A stretch of DNA of 61,471 nucleotides, taken from Acidobacteriota bacterium. Lineage in GTDB: Bacteria; Acidobacteriota; Terriglobia; Terriglobales; Acidobacteriaceae. A program made the translations under genes and the position numbers. Below the pieces are notes generated by a model. That model did not search any database, was not told the origin of the DNA, and was given only the letters and a program-made list of their open reading frames with translations. Shown in pieces: positions 7,446-41,022 of the stretch; within the stretch, counting starts at the first letter, position 1, and each line of letters begins with the position of its first letter. The stretch lies in assembly GCA_021792795.1 (NCBI GenBank), contig JAJYUB010000020.1:1-61471 (forward strand), in the 5' to 3' direction.

Positions 7446-7450
7446 CGACG

Positions 7451-7566
7451 AGACCGGTCCTCCTGATGCTATAGATTGCGAAGATCGTTCAGTGCGGCCT
7501 TTTTTTTAAGGAAAGGCCACGAATCGAGGTTGTCTCCACGCCAGATACCTTCAGGAGAACCGGTCT
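7451..7566 (-). ncRNA. Candidate cis-regulatory leader RNA, copy 1
   Basis: Read on the minus strand, the 116-base leader begins AGACCGGTTCTCCTGA and ends TCAGGAGGACCGGTCT. These ends pair over 16 positions with one G-U, closing a long terminal stem. The 3' arm contains GGAGG, the presumed Shine-Dalgarno of the following membrane-protein gene, so the stem would mask it. An internal hairpin (7496-7518, GGCC ends with an A-rich loop) and the conserved 3' segment TATAGCATC lie between. A perfect TATAAT at 7572-7577 would start transcription at or next to the first paired base. A second copy with the same layout is at 31833-31944. Not matched to a known riboswitch class by eye. Confidence 0.55.
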
Positions 7567-7571
7567 AGCGA

Positions 7572-7577
7572 ATTATA
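7572..7577 (-). promoter_or_regulatory. -10 box upstream of the leader RNA
   Basis: Minus-strand TATAAT, a perfect consensus -10 hexamer, ends six bases before the AGACCGG that opens the leader, the expected distance to a start point. No good -35 hexamer is visible 17 bases upstream (TGTGTC). Confidence 0.5.
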
Positions 7578-26980: not shown

Positions 26981-27084
26981 GAGTCATTCCGAGCGCAGCG
27001 AAGAATCCGGAAAATATCTGCCTCGTCCACGCTGCCATCACCCTCTGGATTCTTCGGTCGCCACGGCGACCTCAGAATGACTCC
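26981..27084. repeat. Long palindromic repeat, family B copy 1
   Basis: Left arm GGAGTCATTC with GAAGAATCC and right arm GGATTCTTC with CAGAATGACTCC form a long imperfect palindrome around a GC-rich centre. Flanked by ATTTACAGTTGG (26951-26962) and an inverted ATCTGTAAATCCGC (27104-27117). Confidence 0.65.
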
Positions 27085-27738: not shown

Positions 27739-27883
27739 CGTGGGAGCACCTGAACTTCTTCTGTTGGCTAGAGCAAAACCAGAGTTACTGTGGACTTTTT
27801 GGGTATTCTGAAGGTCGCCGCTCCTTGGTCGTCGCGTCGACTTGGCCTCCGTGGCTTCGAGGTACATCCACTCTGGTTTCGCT

Positions 27884-28894
27884 CTAGCGCACGGAAAGTT
27901 TTTGCAACGGTGTCGGGTCGTGGGCGCGCAACTCAGCGACGATCTCCGCCGCCGCCTCTCGCGCCAGATCGTCCTTTTCGCGCGGAAATGAAATCGCTCC
28001 CACCCGCGCATGGCCGCCGCCGCCGTAGCGTTCGCAAATCACCGCCAGATTCACCATCTGCTCGGCTGGAACGCGCGCCCAGGGATTGGAGCCGACCGCA
28101 ATTTTGGTTCGGAAGCTAGAGCGGCTGAGGCCAATGCTGTAGGTCGCCTGGGGATGAAGGTAGTACGGGATAAATTTGTTATAGCCTTCCAGCGGATGGT
28201 CGGTGATGTCGAAAGTAATGGTCCCCCGCTCGCACGAGGAGCGTTCCCGAATCAGTTCCAGCGCGTGGCGATGGCGTTCCAGCAGGCCCGGAATCAGGTC
28301 GCGCACAAACGGCTGGTCCAGAACTTCCGCCAGGCCCATTTCCGTCAACAACGGAATCAATCGAGGAACAAAGCCGGGGTCCTGCGCCGACTCAATCGCC
28401 ATGGTCAGCTTCATGGCGGGCTCCGCCATCTCCACAGCGCTCTGCGCGCTCTCATAATGCGCGCCATCCACAATGTCCGCCCAGCGAACCAACTCGGCGA
28501 CCGGCGCGGCGTCAAATCCAAAGTGCGTTGCCGCAATGCGCGCGATCAACCCGGTACAGGAAACATACTCAGGATCGTAAAATTTTCGCTCGCGGACCTT
28601 CGCGTCCTTCTGGCCGGCGAGAAAGTGCCGATGATCTTCCGGCGTCAGGAACGCGCTCAGGTGATGATCGAACCACCAGGTAATCGCCGGGGAAGAAGAG
28701 TATTTGAAATCGACAATGGCATTCTCATCGCCGGTAAACTCCTTCTCGTCAAACAGCGCGCCGGCGCGGTGGACCAGCCCGCGGAATTCATAGTCCACGC
28801 CCGCGGCGATGCGTTCGCGATGGAAGCGCGCGAACAGCGAGGCCGAACAGGCCCCATCGAAACATTTGTCGTGATAGAAAACACGTACTTTCAC
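27884..28894 (-). CDS. DHH family phosphoesterase-like protein
   Basis: A protein of about 336 residues resembling the DHH/DHHA1 superfamily of phosphodiesterases (RecJ, NrnA and relatives). It opens RVFYHDKCFDGACSASL, has the signature WWFDHHLSAF near residue 75 and ends with a DHHA1-like glycine-rich motif ERYGGGGHARVGAISF. Some canonical metal-binding positions look altered (HDKCFDG in place of HxDxDA), so it may be a divergent or non-exonuclease member. A TTG is open 63 bases upstream, but GTG28894 with GGAG 11 bases before it starts the conserved part. Possible substrates are nano-RNA or cyclic dinucleotides; unproven. Confidence 0.75.
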   Translation of the reverse strand: MKVRVFYHDKCFDGACSASLFARFHRERIAAGVDYEFRGLVHRAGALFDEKEFTGDENAIVDFKYSSSPAITWWFDHHLSAFLTPEDHRHFLAGQKDAKVRERKFYDPEYVSCTGLIARIAATHFGFDAAPVAELVRWADIVDGAHYESAQSAVEMAEPAMKLTMAIESAQDPGFVPRLIPLLTEMGLAEVLDQPFVRDLIPGLLERHRHALELIRERSSCERGTITFDITDHPLEGYNKFIPYYLHPQATYSIGLSRSSFRTKIAVGSNPWARVPAEQMVNLAVICERYGGGGHARVGAISFPREKDDLAREAAAEIVAELRAHDPTPLQKLSVR

Positions 28895-29065
28895 TTGGGA
28901 ACAATCACTCCATTCGCAACCGTCGGATGGCAACAATATCCTATTAGGCTGAATCAACTAGCATTGCTGGCATTGGGCGATATGTCAAGCGAACCCGCTG
29001 CCGGAAACGACCGTTGAAGCGGTTGCGGCTGCGCCAAGCGGATGGAGGGCAGGGCGGGATCTCGA

Positions 29066-31118: not shown

Positions 31119-31832
31119 TCAGTCCGCGACCATCGACTCGCCGGGCAGGATTGGACGGGTGCGAGGCAACATTCCGCGATACGCGCCCACACCCATCGAC
31201 AAGAGCGCGCCAACAAAGACCGCCAATTTCAAAACGTTCGTCACCTGTGTCTGTGGCGCAATTTTCCACAACGCCAGCAACAGCGTCTGCGCGACGGTGA
31301 CGGCCCAGACCGAGCCGTAAAAATAGCGCCGCTCCGTCCCTTCGCCCCTGGTGGAGCGACCGACGCGCGGCAGCTTGCCGAATGCGCCCAGCAGTAGAAT
31401 GATGGCGCACAGCGGCAGATAGCCATGCCGATAGATCGGCCGCATATACCATTTCCCGGTCGCCGCCGCGACAATGAGACCGCTCAGGTTCAGCAGAGCG
31501 AAGCTCAACACCGCATTCCAGGCGAAGGCGTAGCAGACCCTGCGGTAGAGCGGATTCGGCTTGTCTTCATCGAAGCGCAGAATGTACGGGCGCGGCTCGG
31601 AGCCGGGGAGTTTCCCGCGCACAGCGGCCACGCCAGTTCCCGCCAATACGGCCAGCAGCCAGGCCAGGTTGCCGAGCCCAAACCCATGCGCAAACAAGGT
31701 GAAGGTCAGCGGACCCGGCGCCAGAAAGAACACCCAGATCCAGATGGGCCAGTGCGCCAGCCGGTAGAGGCGCGTGTTTCGCTGGCGCATTTTTCGCGCG
31801 TCGGCATATTCCACCTTCCCGCTGTATCGCAT
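31119..31832 (-). CDS. Unknown membrane protein with structured leader
   Basis: A 237-residue integral membrane protein with about five or six hydrophobic helices (near residues 27-45, 53-68, 105-125, 138-152, 172-190 and 200-215). I do not recognise a family. A short soluble loop (RPYILRFDEDKPNPLYRR) lies between the second and third helix. The gene is monocistronic as far as can be seen and is preceded by copy 2 of the structured leader RNA, whose 3' arm supplies its ribosome site GGAGG eight bases before the ATG. Sharing this leader with the LMF1-family gene suggests a common control signal. Confidence 0.7.
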   Translation of the reverse strand: MRYSGKVEYADARKMRQRNTRLYRLAHWPIWIWVFFLAPGPLTFTLFAHGFGLGNLAWLLAVLAGTGVAAVRGKLPGSEPRPYILRFDEDKPNPLYRRVCYAFAWNAVLSFALLNLSGLIVAAATGKWYMRPIYRHGYLPLCAIILLLGAFGKLPRVGRSTRGEGTERRYFYGSVWAVTVAQTLLLALWKIAPQTQVTNVLKLAVFVGALLSMGVGAYRGMLPRTRPILPGESMVAD

Positions 31833-31944
31833 GGAGCGGTCCTCCCGATGCTATAAGTTGCCACGATCGATTCAGCGCAGATCGCCGCAGCGAGCTGCGA
31901 ATGGACCCGCTTCCCGATCGACACCCTGAGGGGGGGACCGGTCT
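31833..31944 (-). ncRNA. Candidate cis-regulatory leader RNA, copy 2
   Basis: Minus-strand leader of 112 bases that opens AGACCGGTCCCCCC and closes GGGAGGACCGCTCC, pairing at 11 of 14 positions. The GGAGG in the 3' arm is the ribosome site of the downstream membrane protein. Copy 1 (7451-7566) shares the opening AGACCGGT, a segment GC-CTGAA-CGATC, then GCAA, TATAGCATC and GGAGGACCG, while the apical hairpin differs in sequence (here CGCAG/CTGCG at 31886-31899). Preserved shape with changed internal sequence supports an RNA function. The -10 region upstream of this copy is not a good consensus. Confidence 0.55.
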
Positions 31945-32084
31945 ACGCGTGAGTCTCGCAGAGTCGCCGCAAGCGCGTCAATCCGCATCGCATCCCTGCG
32001 ACCGTGGACCCATGCCGAGGATTGTCGATTCGCCCCTGAGAGCCTCGGGTTTCATTTTGAATTCCCCTGCTAGACTGAAAATCG

Positions 32085-35531: not shown

Positions 35532-35636
35532 GGAGTCATTCTGAATGGAGCGCAGCGGAGTGAAGAATCCAGACAATGTACGCCGGTTGCGTGCCGCCAT
35601 CACCCTCTGGATTCTTCGATTCGCCCAGAATGACTC
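35532..35636. repeat. Long palindromic repeat, family B copy 2
   Basis: The clearest copy: left arm GAGTCATTCTG plus GAAGAATCCAGA, right arm TCTGGATTCTTC plus CAGAATGACTC, with a centre of about 30 bases. An inverted ATTTACAGTTG motif lies 18 bases to the right (35655-35665). Confidence 0.7.
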
Positions 35637-35687
35637 ATCCCGGAAATAACTACACAACTGTAAATGAGCTAAAGAGGAATGGAAACG

Positions 35688-39010: not shown

Positions 39011-39447
39011 GGGGACTGCACCTTCGCTGTGTGGATGAGACTTCATGATCGCAGAATTGGCCCAAATCCGGCCAGTTTCTTTTGACGAGTATCCTGCCAA
39101 TACACGCGAGCCATGTTCTTCATTCCTTGTCGATGCGCAGCCGTTGCCGCGCGGGACCGCACGGAAATCGCGAGACATACCTGAATGATTCCGGCCTTTT
39201 CAAAGTGACGCCGCGCTAACGCAAAGCAATCCTCCCGATGTCCCTCATCATGCGGCCCCGCCAGTGCGGATCGATGGTCCGTATAGCCAGGTTCCCAATG
39301 GAGTCATTCTGAATGGAGGTCGCCGCGACGACCGGAGTGAGGAATCCAGACAATCCGCGCCTGGTACGTACCGCCATTACCCTCTGGATTCTTCGCTTCG
39401 CTCAGAATGACTTCTCACCAAAACGATTGCACCAACTGTAAATCCGC
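39011..39447. other. Intergenic region between ftsZ and the transpeptidase gene
   Basis: These 437 bases lie between the ftsZ stop and the transpeptidase start on the minus strand. They contain the family B palindrome (39300-39413) and, touching the ftsZ stop, the motif CCAACTGTAAATCCGC (minus strand GCGGATTTACAGTTGG). The rest keeps an open frame upstream of the transpeptidase start, without family features. No gene is called. Confidence 0.5.
39300..39413. repeat. Long palindromic repeat, family B copy 3
   Basis: GGAGTCATTCTGAATGGAGG on the left and TCTGGATTCTTCGCTTCGCT with CAGAATGACTTC on the right, around a centre of about 40 bases. Inverted ATTTACAGTTGG motif to the right at 39432-39445. 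Confidence 0.65.
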
Positions 39448-40860: not shown

Positions 40861-40953
40861 TTGTAGAAATCCCTCGATTCAAGCATTTTCGCCGTTCCTG
40901 GTTTGCGTGCCTCATTCTGTCCCGCAGAATGAGGAACCTTGTTTTTCAACTAC

Positions 40954-41022
40954 GCGAACTTCGCATCCGTCCTTCCGCGAACTTCGCATCCGTCCTTCCG
41001 CGAACTTCGCATCCATCCTAAT
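40954..41022. repeat. Three tandem 23-base units upstream of ftsZ
   Basis: Three consecutive 23-base units start at 40954, 40977 and 41000. Each begins GCGAACTTCGCATCC; the first two are identical and the third differs at the end. Each contains the small palindrome GCGAACTTCGC. They lie about 95-160 bases upstream of the ftsZ start and may be protein binding sites or simple slippage. Confidence 0.65.

Follow-up and report, generated by a model that had tools for sequence, protein, structure and literature searches.

Among described bacterial repeats, RUP of Streptococcus pneumoniae comes near to the elements studied here: excerpts from PMC2229807 and PMC3049150 present it as a 107-bp non-coding repeat with IS630-like inverted ends, associated with IS630-Spn1 and inserted at TA. 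The present family differs from RUP in that its arms vary between subfamilies yet match within each copy and its central hairpin covaries; one of its subfamilies is enriched at start codons and one of its copies is under constraint. ERIC and Correia/NEMIS are likewise inverted-end repeats with a terminal TA, and ERIC apparently acts on mRNA stability (both from excerpts of PMC2229807); going by these descriptions, they are set apart by their other hosts and by the position found here, where the element separates the -10 box from the ATG in genes predicted to be leaderless and supplies a GGAG. BOX, also of S. pneumoniae, is an interspersed repeat transcribed as a 5' or 3' extension of operons, and differs in its modular build and its proposed mover, ISSpn2 (excerpts of PMC3049150). 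The titles and abstract openings listed in literature searches yielded no report of this family, or of a MITE that turned leaderless into led genes. The cases described below are before-and-after cases, in which a transposon gives near-leaderless genes a structured Shine-Dalgarno leader and one such leader is strongly selected. With sister species as controls, shifts between leaderless and led translation, and the birth of RNA leaders, become directly testable.

The window analysed is the whole 61,471-nt stretch of contig JAJYUB010000020.1 from an Acidobacteriota genome (G000). A preliminary description had recognised two matching structured leaders there and had ascribed them to a cis-regulatory RNA rather than a MITE. 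Our preferred reading, held at a probability of about 0.78, is that both are MITE insertions and that copy 1 has been exapted as a Shine-Dalgarno-sequestering leader; that copies 1 and 2 are insertions of an IS630-type (Tc1/mariner-like) MITE can itself be regarded as close to certain. The structural account of copy 1 proved accurate: on the minus strand, a leader of 116 nt (7451-7566) has outer 16 positions that form 15 Watson-Crick pairs and one G-U pair, and TATAAT and GGAGG are both present (Table 1), the gap from GGAGG to ATG being long for a Shine-Dalgarno sequence. Its fold (-55.1 kcal/mol, z -6.6) was equalled by none of 200 shuffles. Copy 2 (31833-31944, minus strand) indeed shares TATAGCATC, GGAGGACCG and AGACCGGT with copy 1; the likeness of 36 of 45 bases claimed for the 3' halves holds if an internal gap is admitted (37 matches over the last 46), not for the ungapped comparison (31/45 over the last 45). 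The fold of copy 2 is weak (z -1.0), being matched by 30 of 200 shuffles, and its outer 16 positions form 11 Watson-Crick pairs. Scanned for arms at least 15/16 identical at a span of 105-125, the window returned copy 1 and a sister element (27768-27887) only.

Table 1. Coordinates, on the window, of the family members, their flanking target sites and the associated signals and genes
Feature	Position	Strand	Remarks
MITE copy 1	7452..7565	-	114 nt, GACCGG...CCGGTC; palindromic ends; insertion common to G006 and G008, empty in the other 7 genus genomes
TA target duplication, upstream side of copy 1	7566..7567	-	empty site CGC-TA-GTCGATG in G009, G004, G007
Downstream TA duplication of copy 1, now TC	7450..7451	-	identical TC in G000, G006, G008
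TATAAT, putative -10 box before copy 1	7572..7577	-	in filled and empty sites alike; candidate promoter element
GGAGG in 3' arm of copy 1	7459..7463	-	13 nt before ATG; GGAGA in both orthologues (G006, G008)
Gene behind copy 1, LMF1 family (PF06762 and PF25179), 551 aa	5790..7445	-	
Third family member	27771..27884	+	TA at 27769-27770 and 27885-27886, each inside CTAG
MITE copy 2	31834..31943	-	110 nt, diverged centre; empty site in G006, G009, G004
TA target duplication, upstream side of copy 2	31944..31945	-	empty site ACGCG-TA-TGCGATAC
Downstream TA duplication of copy 2, now CA	31832..31833	-	its A is the A of ATG
GGAGG of copy 2	31841..31845	-	8 nt before ATG
Candidate -10 GAGACT (3/6 to TATAAT)	31952..31957	-	with TTGACG 31976-31981, 18-nt spacer; putative promoter
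Gene behind copy 2, membrane-like protein (by eye), 237 aa	31119..31832	-	

LMF1 orthologues were found in all 10 genus genomes examined, with the element upstream in G000, G006 and G008 and empty sites in the other 7. The empty site reads TATAATTCGCTAGTCGATG in G009, G004 and G007, where the TATAAT box ends 10 nt before the ATG; in G002, G005, G003 and G001, also without the element, TATAAT lies 10 or 11 nt before the ATG. At the copy 2 locus three genomes (G006, G009, G004) have the empty site, ACGCGTATGCGATAC, whose TA overlaps the start codon. Orthologous empty sites thus identify both window copies as insertions at TA, with the TA kept on one side and altered by one base on the other, and the argument that no target-site duplication flanks either copy, which had spoken against a MITE, fails. 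Since the downstream TA has become TC in all three filled species, the LMF1 element traces back to one shared insertion event, older than the split of these species. Copy 2 was found in one lineage only and, unlike copy 1, offers no evidence of function. Elsewhere in the genus its gene stands behind a different upstream region in G002, is a fragment only in G008 and was not found in G001, G003, G005 and G007; no close second copy of the element was found in the genus, and the 237-aa gene product has no Pfam or NCBIfam match. At other loci, comparison with empty sites gave perfect TA duplications for fmt and a moaD-like gene and a TA changed to TG for mutS; the empty site at the Rrf2 locus reads CACATG, with no TA seen, and no clean empty site was obtained for the FliS and glycosylase loci. 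Of 79 copies tallied, 38 have TA at the left end, 48 at the right end and 27 at both, with G after the right TA in 27/48 and C before the left TA in 16/38. IS630 prefers CTAG, with which this tally agrees only in part.

Copies 1 and 2 are members of a family of palindromes, about 115 bp long and dispersed, that occupies at least 19 distinct places in their own genome. BLAST of that genome with copy 1 retrieved 7 further full or partial copies at E <0.01, the best three 76% identical over 100 bases, and a covariance model (R1), built from 13 copies and seeded partly with leader copies, had matches in 12 genomes out of 61, namely in all genus genomes but G001 (9 of 10) and in 3 of 51 outside the genus (G044, G056 and, weakly, G026). 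For comparison, copies were taken from 79 places: G000 contributed 19, eight further genomes of the genus 58, and G044 and G056 one apiece, after removal of second-strand duplicates and some of the weaker matches. As in a MITE, the elements are short and non-coding, dispersed in many copies between unrelated flanks, and bounded by terminal inverted repeats, to which the empty sites add a TA target duplication. The ends typically read TAGAGC...GCTCTA or TAGACC...GGTCTA; the arms vary by subfamily yet agree inside each copy (GCATTTCTCC, CCGGTTCTCC, AAGAGCACAG, AGTTCCACGG, ATTTTCACTA, AATCGCACAG).

The third window member, well preserved and absent among the R1 matches listed, spans 120 bases including CTAG at both ends (27768-27887) and is identical at 114 of these to G000:C33:13151-13270; the 40-bp flanks of the two are unrelated (10/40 and 12/40 alike), and one arm pair has changed on both sides, from A-T to G-C. 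A minus-strand ORF (27884-28957) terminates with TAG at the edge of this member. Beyond the window, comparison of L051 (G003:C103) with L096 (G005:C265) shows a AAGAGCACAG-type element apparently at the terminal TA of a AGTTCCACGG-type one, a nested target use. In L003 (G000:C40:25692-25709), half an element apparently forms an in-frame part of the coding sequence for the N-terminus of a protein predicted to be secreted (MAMTRDRVLLMLSIAKC...). L036 (G056:C110:11479-11637), a copy in a genome from another family of the taxonomic class, has the same ends and a different, longer centre.

Kinship with an autonomous transposon is indicated by the ends: because they bound IS630 elements of about 1.0 kb in other Acidobacteriota, the family is classed as an IS630-type MITE. 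In L173 and L180, inverted copies of the same end enclose elements that measure 1031 and 1016 bp from TA to TA, each set within CTAG. Each contains two overlapping ORFs, of which the second exceeds the cut-offs for DDE_3 (Pfam) and for the IS630 transposase model NF033545 (155 and 144 bits, cut-off 100) and the first gives HTH matches below the Pfam cut-offs and an NF033545 match below its cut-off. The assembly of L173 also holds a 159-bp internally deleted derivative (L177) with both L173 ends. Matches to the IS ends amount to 21/24 and 20/24 for a genus copy (G006:C194) and, against L173, to 17/24 on each side for window copy 1. G000 itself carries two decayed IS630 relatives of about 1.02 kb whose second ORF is 43-48% identical to that of L173. 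One lies inside CTAG with both ends reading GAGC, the other has GAGC at a single end; a search of this genome for an IS630 with the exact family ends found looser ends only. Judging from the shared ends, an IS630 transposase presumably mobilises the family in trans.

Seven IS630 elements of the genus were rejected as parents, L106-L110 having GTG-type ends after CTA and L111 and L116 no clear ends. The end AGCATTTCTCCYGWWGSTRTAKA, scanned in named genomes, returned 24 stretches; 23 carry names that we take to be Acidobacteriota, and the remaining one, from Clostridia, has the look of a fortuitous AT-rich hit. A strict motif search, too narrow, hit paired ends in 3 of 120 genomes, and a viral-contig scan yielded one stretch, without an inverted mate. 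A REPIN-like nature of the copies, with movement by a REP-associated tyrosine transposase (Y1_Tnp), has next to no probability. Y1_Tnp genes do occur in 9 of 10 genomes searched, with one copy adjoining such a gene (L149) and a lone end near another (L155), but model R1 matches 1 of 30 Y1_Tnp loci examined, so that, this locus and the lone end apart, the copies do not flank the RAYT genes covered; the TA duplication and the IS630 ends point the same way.

The check for covariation came out positive. In alignment A2, whose 35 rows were selected from the 79 places, both partners vary in 22 of 26 pairs, the central hairpin contributing 7 of its 9. Shuffling gives a mean of 14.9 such pairs, with 22 reached once in 500 trials, and shifting the partners by 1-3 columns leaves 7 to 13. 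Inverted repeats covary in any case, so this test would be passed without a regulatory RNA class; covariation and recurrence before genes do not by themselves mark a riboswitch class, since TA-flanked inverted repeats pass both. The covariation of the central hairpin (A2 columns 47-55 with 66-74) is not explained by transposase end recognition; either selection on folding or hairpin-driven correction would account for it.

The RNA class originally envisaged, a riboswitch, thermosensor or protein-bound leader dedicated to membrane proteins, could draw on copies that precede genes, on the strong fold of copy 1 and on the covarying pairs. It is nevertheless very improbable. The whole window gives 0 matches to Rfam 15 at gathering score, and the hosts of the leader copies are unrelated (LMF1, Rrf2, MutS, formyltransferase, ThiS/MoaD-like, FliS); of 67 independent places just 11 have a start codon, as called by a custom ORF caller, no more than 15 nt away, and a transposon is indicated by the TA seen at empty sites and by IS630 elements whose ends are shared. 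As for a thermosensor, in the LMF1 leaders (n=3) the computed unpaired probability of GGAGG/GGAGA is 0.000 at 25 and 37 °C and 0.001 at 50 °C, so that the predicted Shine-Dalgarno sequence stays closed over this range. Masking is predicted to be complete at 25-50 °C in the LMF1, Rrf2 and FliS leaders; for copy 2 the predicted value is about 80% and for mutS half. A riboswitch-like class is rejected on the grounds of the empty sites, the unrelated hosts and the missing Rfam match. What stands of the cis-regulatory reading applies to copy 1, not to copy 2: retained in three species, constrained, and with its GGAGG/GGAGA hidden in silico, copy 1 is plausibly a cis-acting leader.

Among genes adjacent to copies, Pfam matches on the 120-residue starts are to Rrf2, MutS_I, FliS, ThiS (moaD-like), Formyl_trans_N (fmt-like), GCV_T and ketoacyl-synt (fabF-like), with the L048 glycosylase match below its cut-off. 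The CCGGTTCTCC subfamily has 7 of 15 independent places within 15 nt of a start, compared to 4 of 52 for the others (Fisher p 0.0015, post hoc, the enrichment having been tested after the pattern was noticed); the custom ORF caller missed the mutS start and put the L048 glycosylase start 82 nt away, with a GTG lying at 7 nt. At 25 of 67 places a gene ends at the element edge, as expected if the TA lies in the stop codon, and 0 of 67 places are inside a called ORF.

A signature of leaderless genes, TA-like signals about 12 bp upstream, applies to a mean of 13.3% of genes in three Acidobacteria genomes (excerpts of PMC3160421). Inspected by eye, the empty state conforms to it, with a -10-like box ending 7-10 nt before the start at LMF1 (G009, G004, G007), copy 2, mutS and Rrf2, and the TTGACG..GAGACT..ATG block at copy 2 is conserved in G006, G009 and G004. 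From these boxes, weak at copy 2, the LMF1 and copy 2 host genes were probably leaderless before insertion; alternatively, a promoter may lie inside or downstream of either element. The events at LMF1 are envisaged as follows. A non-autonomous IS630-type element of about 114 bp, targeting TA and with inverted repeats starting GAGC or GACC, entered the 7-10 nt gap between predicted -10 box and start codon, as its relative did at copy 2. Insertion would create a 5' leader of about 115 nt with GGAGG/GGAGA in its 3' arm, predicted to fold end to end in copy 1. There the likely role is in translation: the 5' arm would pair with the purine-rich arm and keep initiation at a low level, with release once the ribosome, a helicase or RNase III, for instance, unwinds or cleaves the helix.

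Extended to other genes, this scheme would make the GACCGG/TTCTCC subfamily a mobile translation switch, which through its GGAGAA end and hairpin enters the -10-to-ATG gap of leaderless genes and brings several unrelated ones (LMF1, an Rrf2 regulator, perhaps mutS) under shared RNA-level control. Each gene entered may in this way become Shine-Dalgarno-led and locked by the same helix. We regard this generalisation as speculative and, on balance, doubtful.

The LMF1 copy is under strong constraint across species. Between G000 and G008 the element is identical at 115/117 positions, compared to 179/268 fourfold-degenerate sites of the gene (Fisher p 5e-14); the figures are 115/117 and 179/267 for G006-G008, and 113/117 and 253/293 for G000-G006 (p 0.002). 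Conversion from a sister copy is unlikely, as the nearest to copy 1 among 18 other compared G000 places is only 70% identical. Rrf2 leaders also exceed fourfold sites for G002-G003 (111/116 vs 46/73) and G002-G005 (104/116 vs 40/68), with G003-G005 not significant (104/115 vs 64/80, p 0.056); mutS does so for G000-G007 (94/107 vs 139/235) and G006-G007 (89/107 vs 141/233), and gcvT for the pair compared (112/116 vs 166/194, p 0.002).

Functionless MITE passengers, which the genes would tolerate thanks to the GGAG in the element end, would account for the leader copies that drift like fourfold sites, namely fmt (85/115 vs 120/154), fabF (90/117 vs 161/222) and mutS in G000-G006 (96/111 vs 223/267), none of them showing constraint, and for the degenerate copy 2 in its single lineage. 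As an explanation for the whole, passengers are unlikely: the G000-G008 identity of the LMF1 element is far above that of fourfold sites and of the flank 15-110 bases upstream (61/92), and the two Rrf2 comparisons named above run against it as well. We consider copy 1 likely to be functional.

Whether copy 1 acts as RNA rather than as DNA we place at even odds. Constraint on DNA (an operator, supercoiling or a termination hairpin) fits the conservation of the whole LMF1 element, loops included, and the LMF1 substitutions are too few to tell DNA from RNA; on the other side, 4 changed LMF1 pair-cells stay paired on the mRNA strand compared to 2 on the other, tiny numbers read from a structure derived from the same sequences. 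As an explanation in its own right, constraint on DNA and not on RNA is considered unlikely. Changed pair-cells on the mRNA strand were kept or broken in the ratio 4/2 in LMF1, 4/4 in Rrf2, 15/18 in mutS, 1/0 in gcvT, 7/0 in fmt and 6/0 in fabF; since drifting copies score as well as constrained ones, pair-cells do not demonstrate selection at the RNA level.

The window also contains other repeats. A second dispersed repeat (GAATCC.GA ... CTCTGGATTCTTCG) occupies four places, 1696-1726, 26982-27056, 35554-35655 and 39331-39432, and sequence similar to it occurs between MITE-type ends in L184 and L188. At 40953-41021 a 23-bp unit, CGCGAACTTCGCATCCGTCCTTC, stands three times in tandem, with 87% likeness in the last copy.
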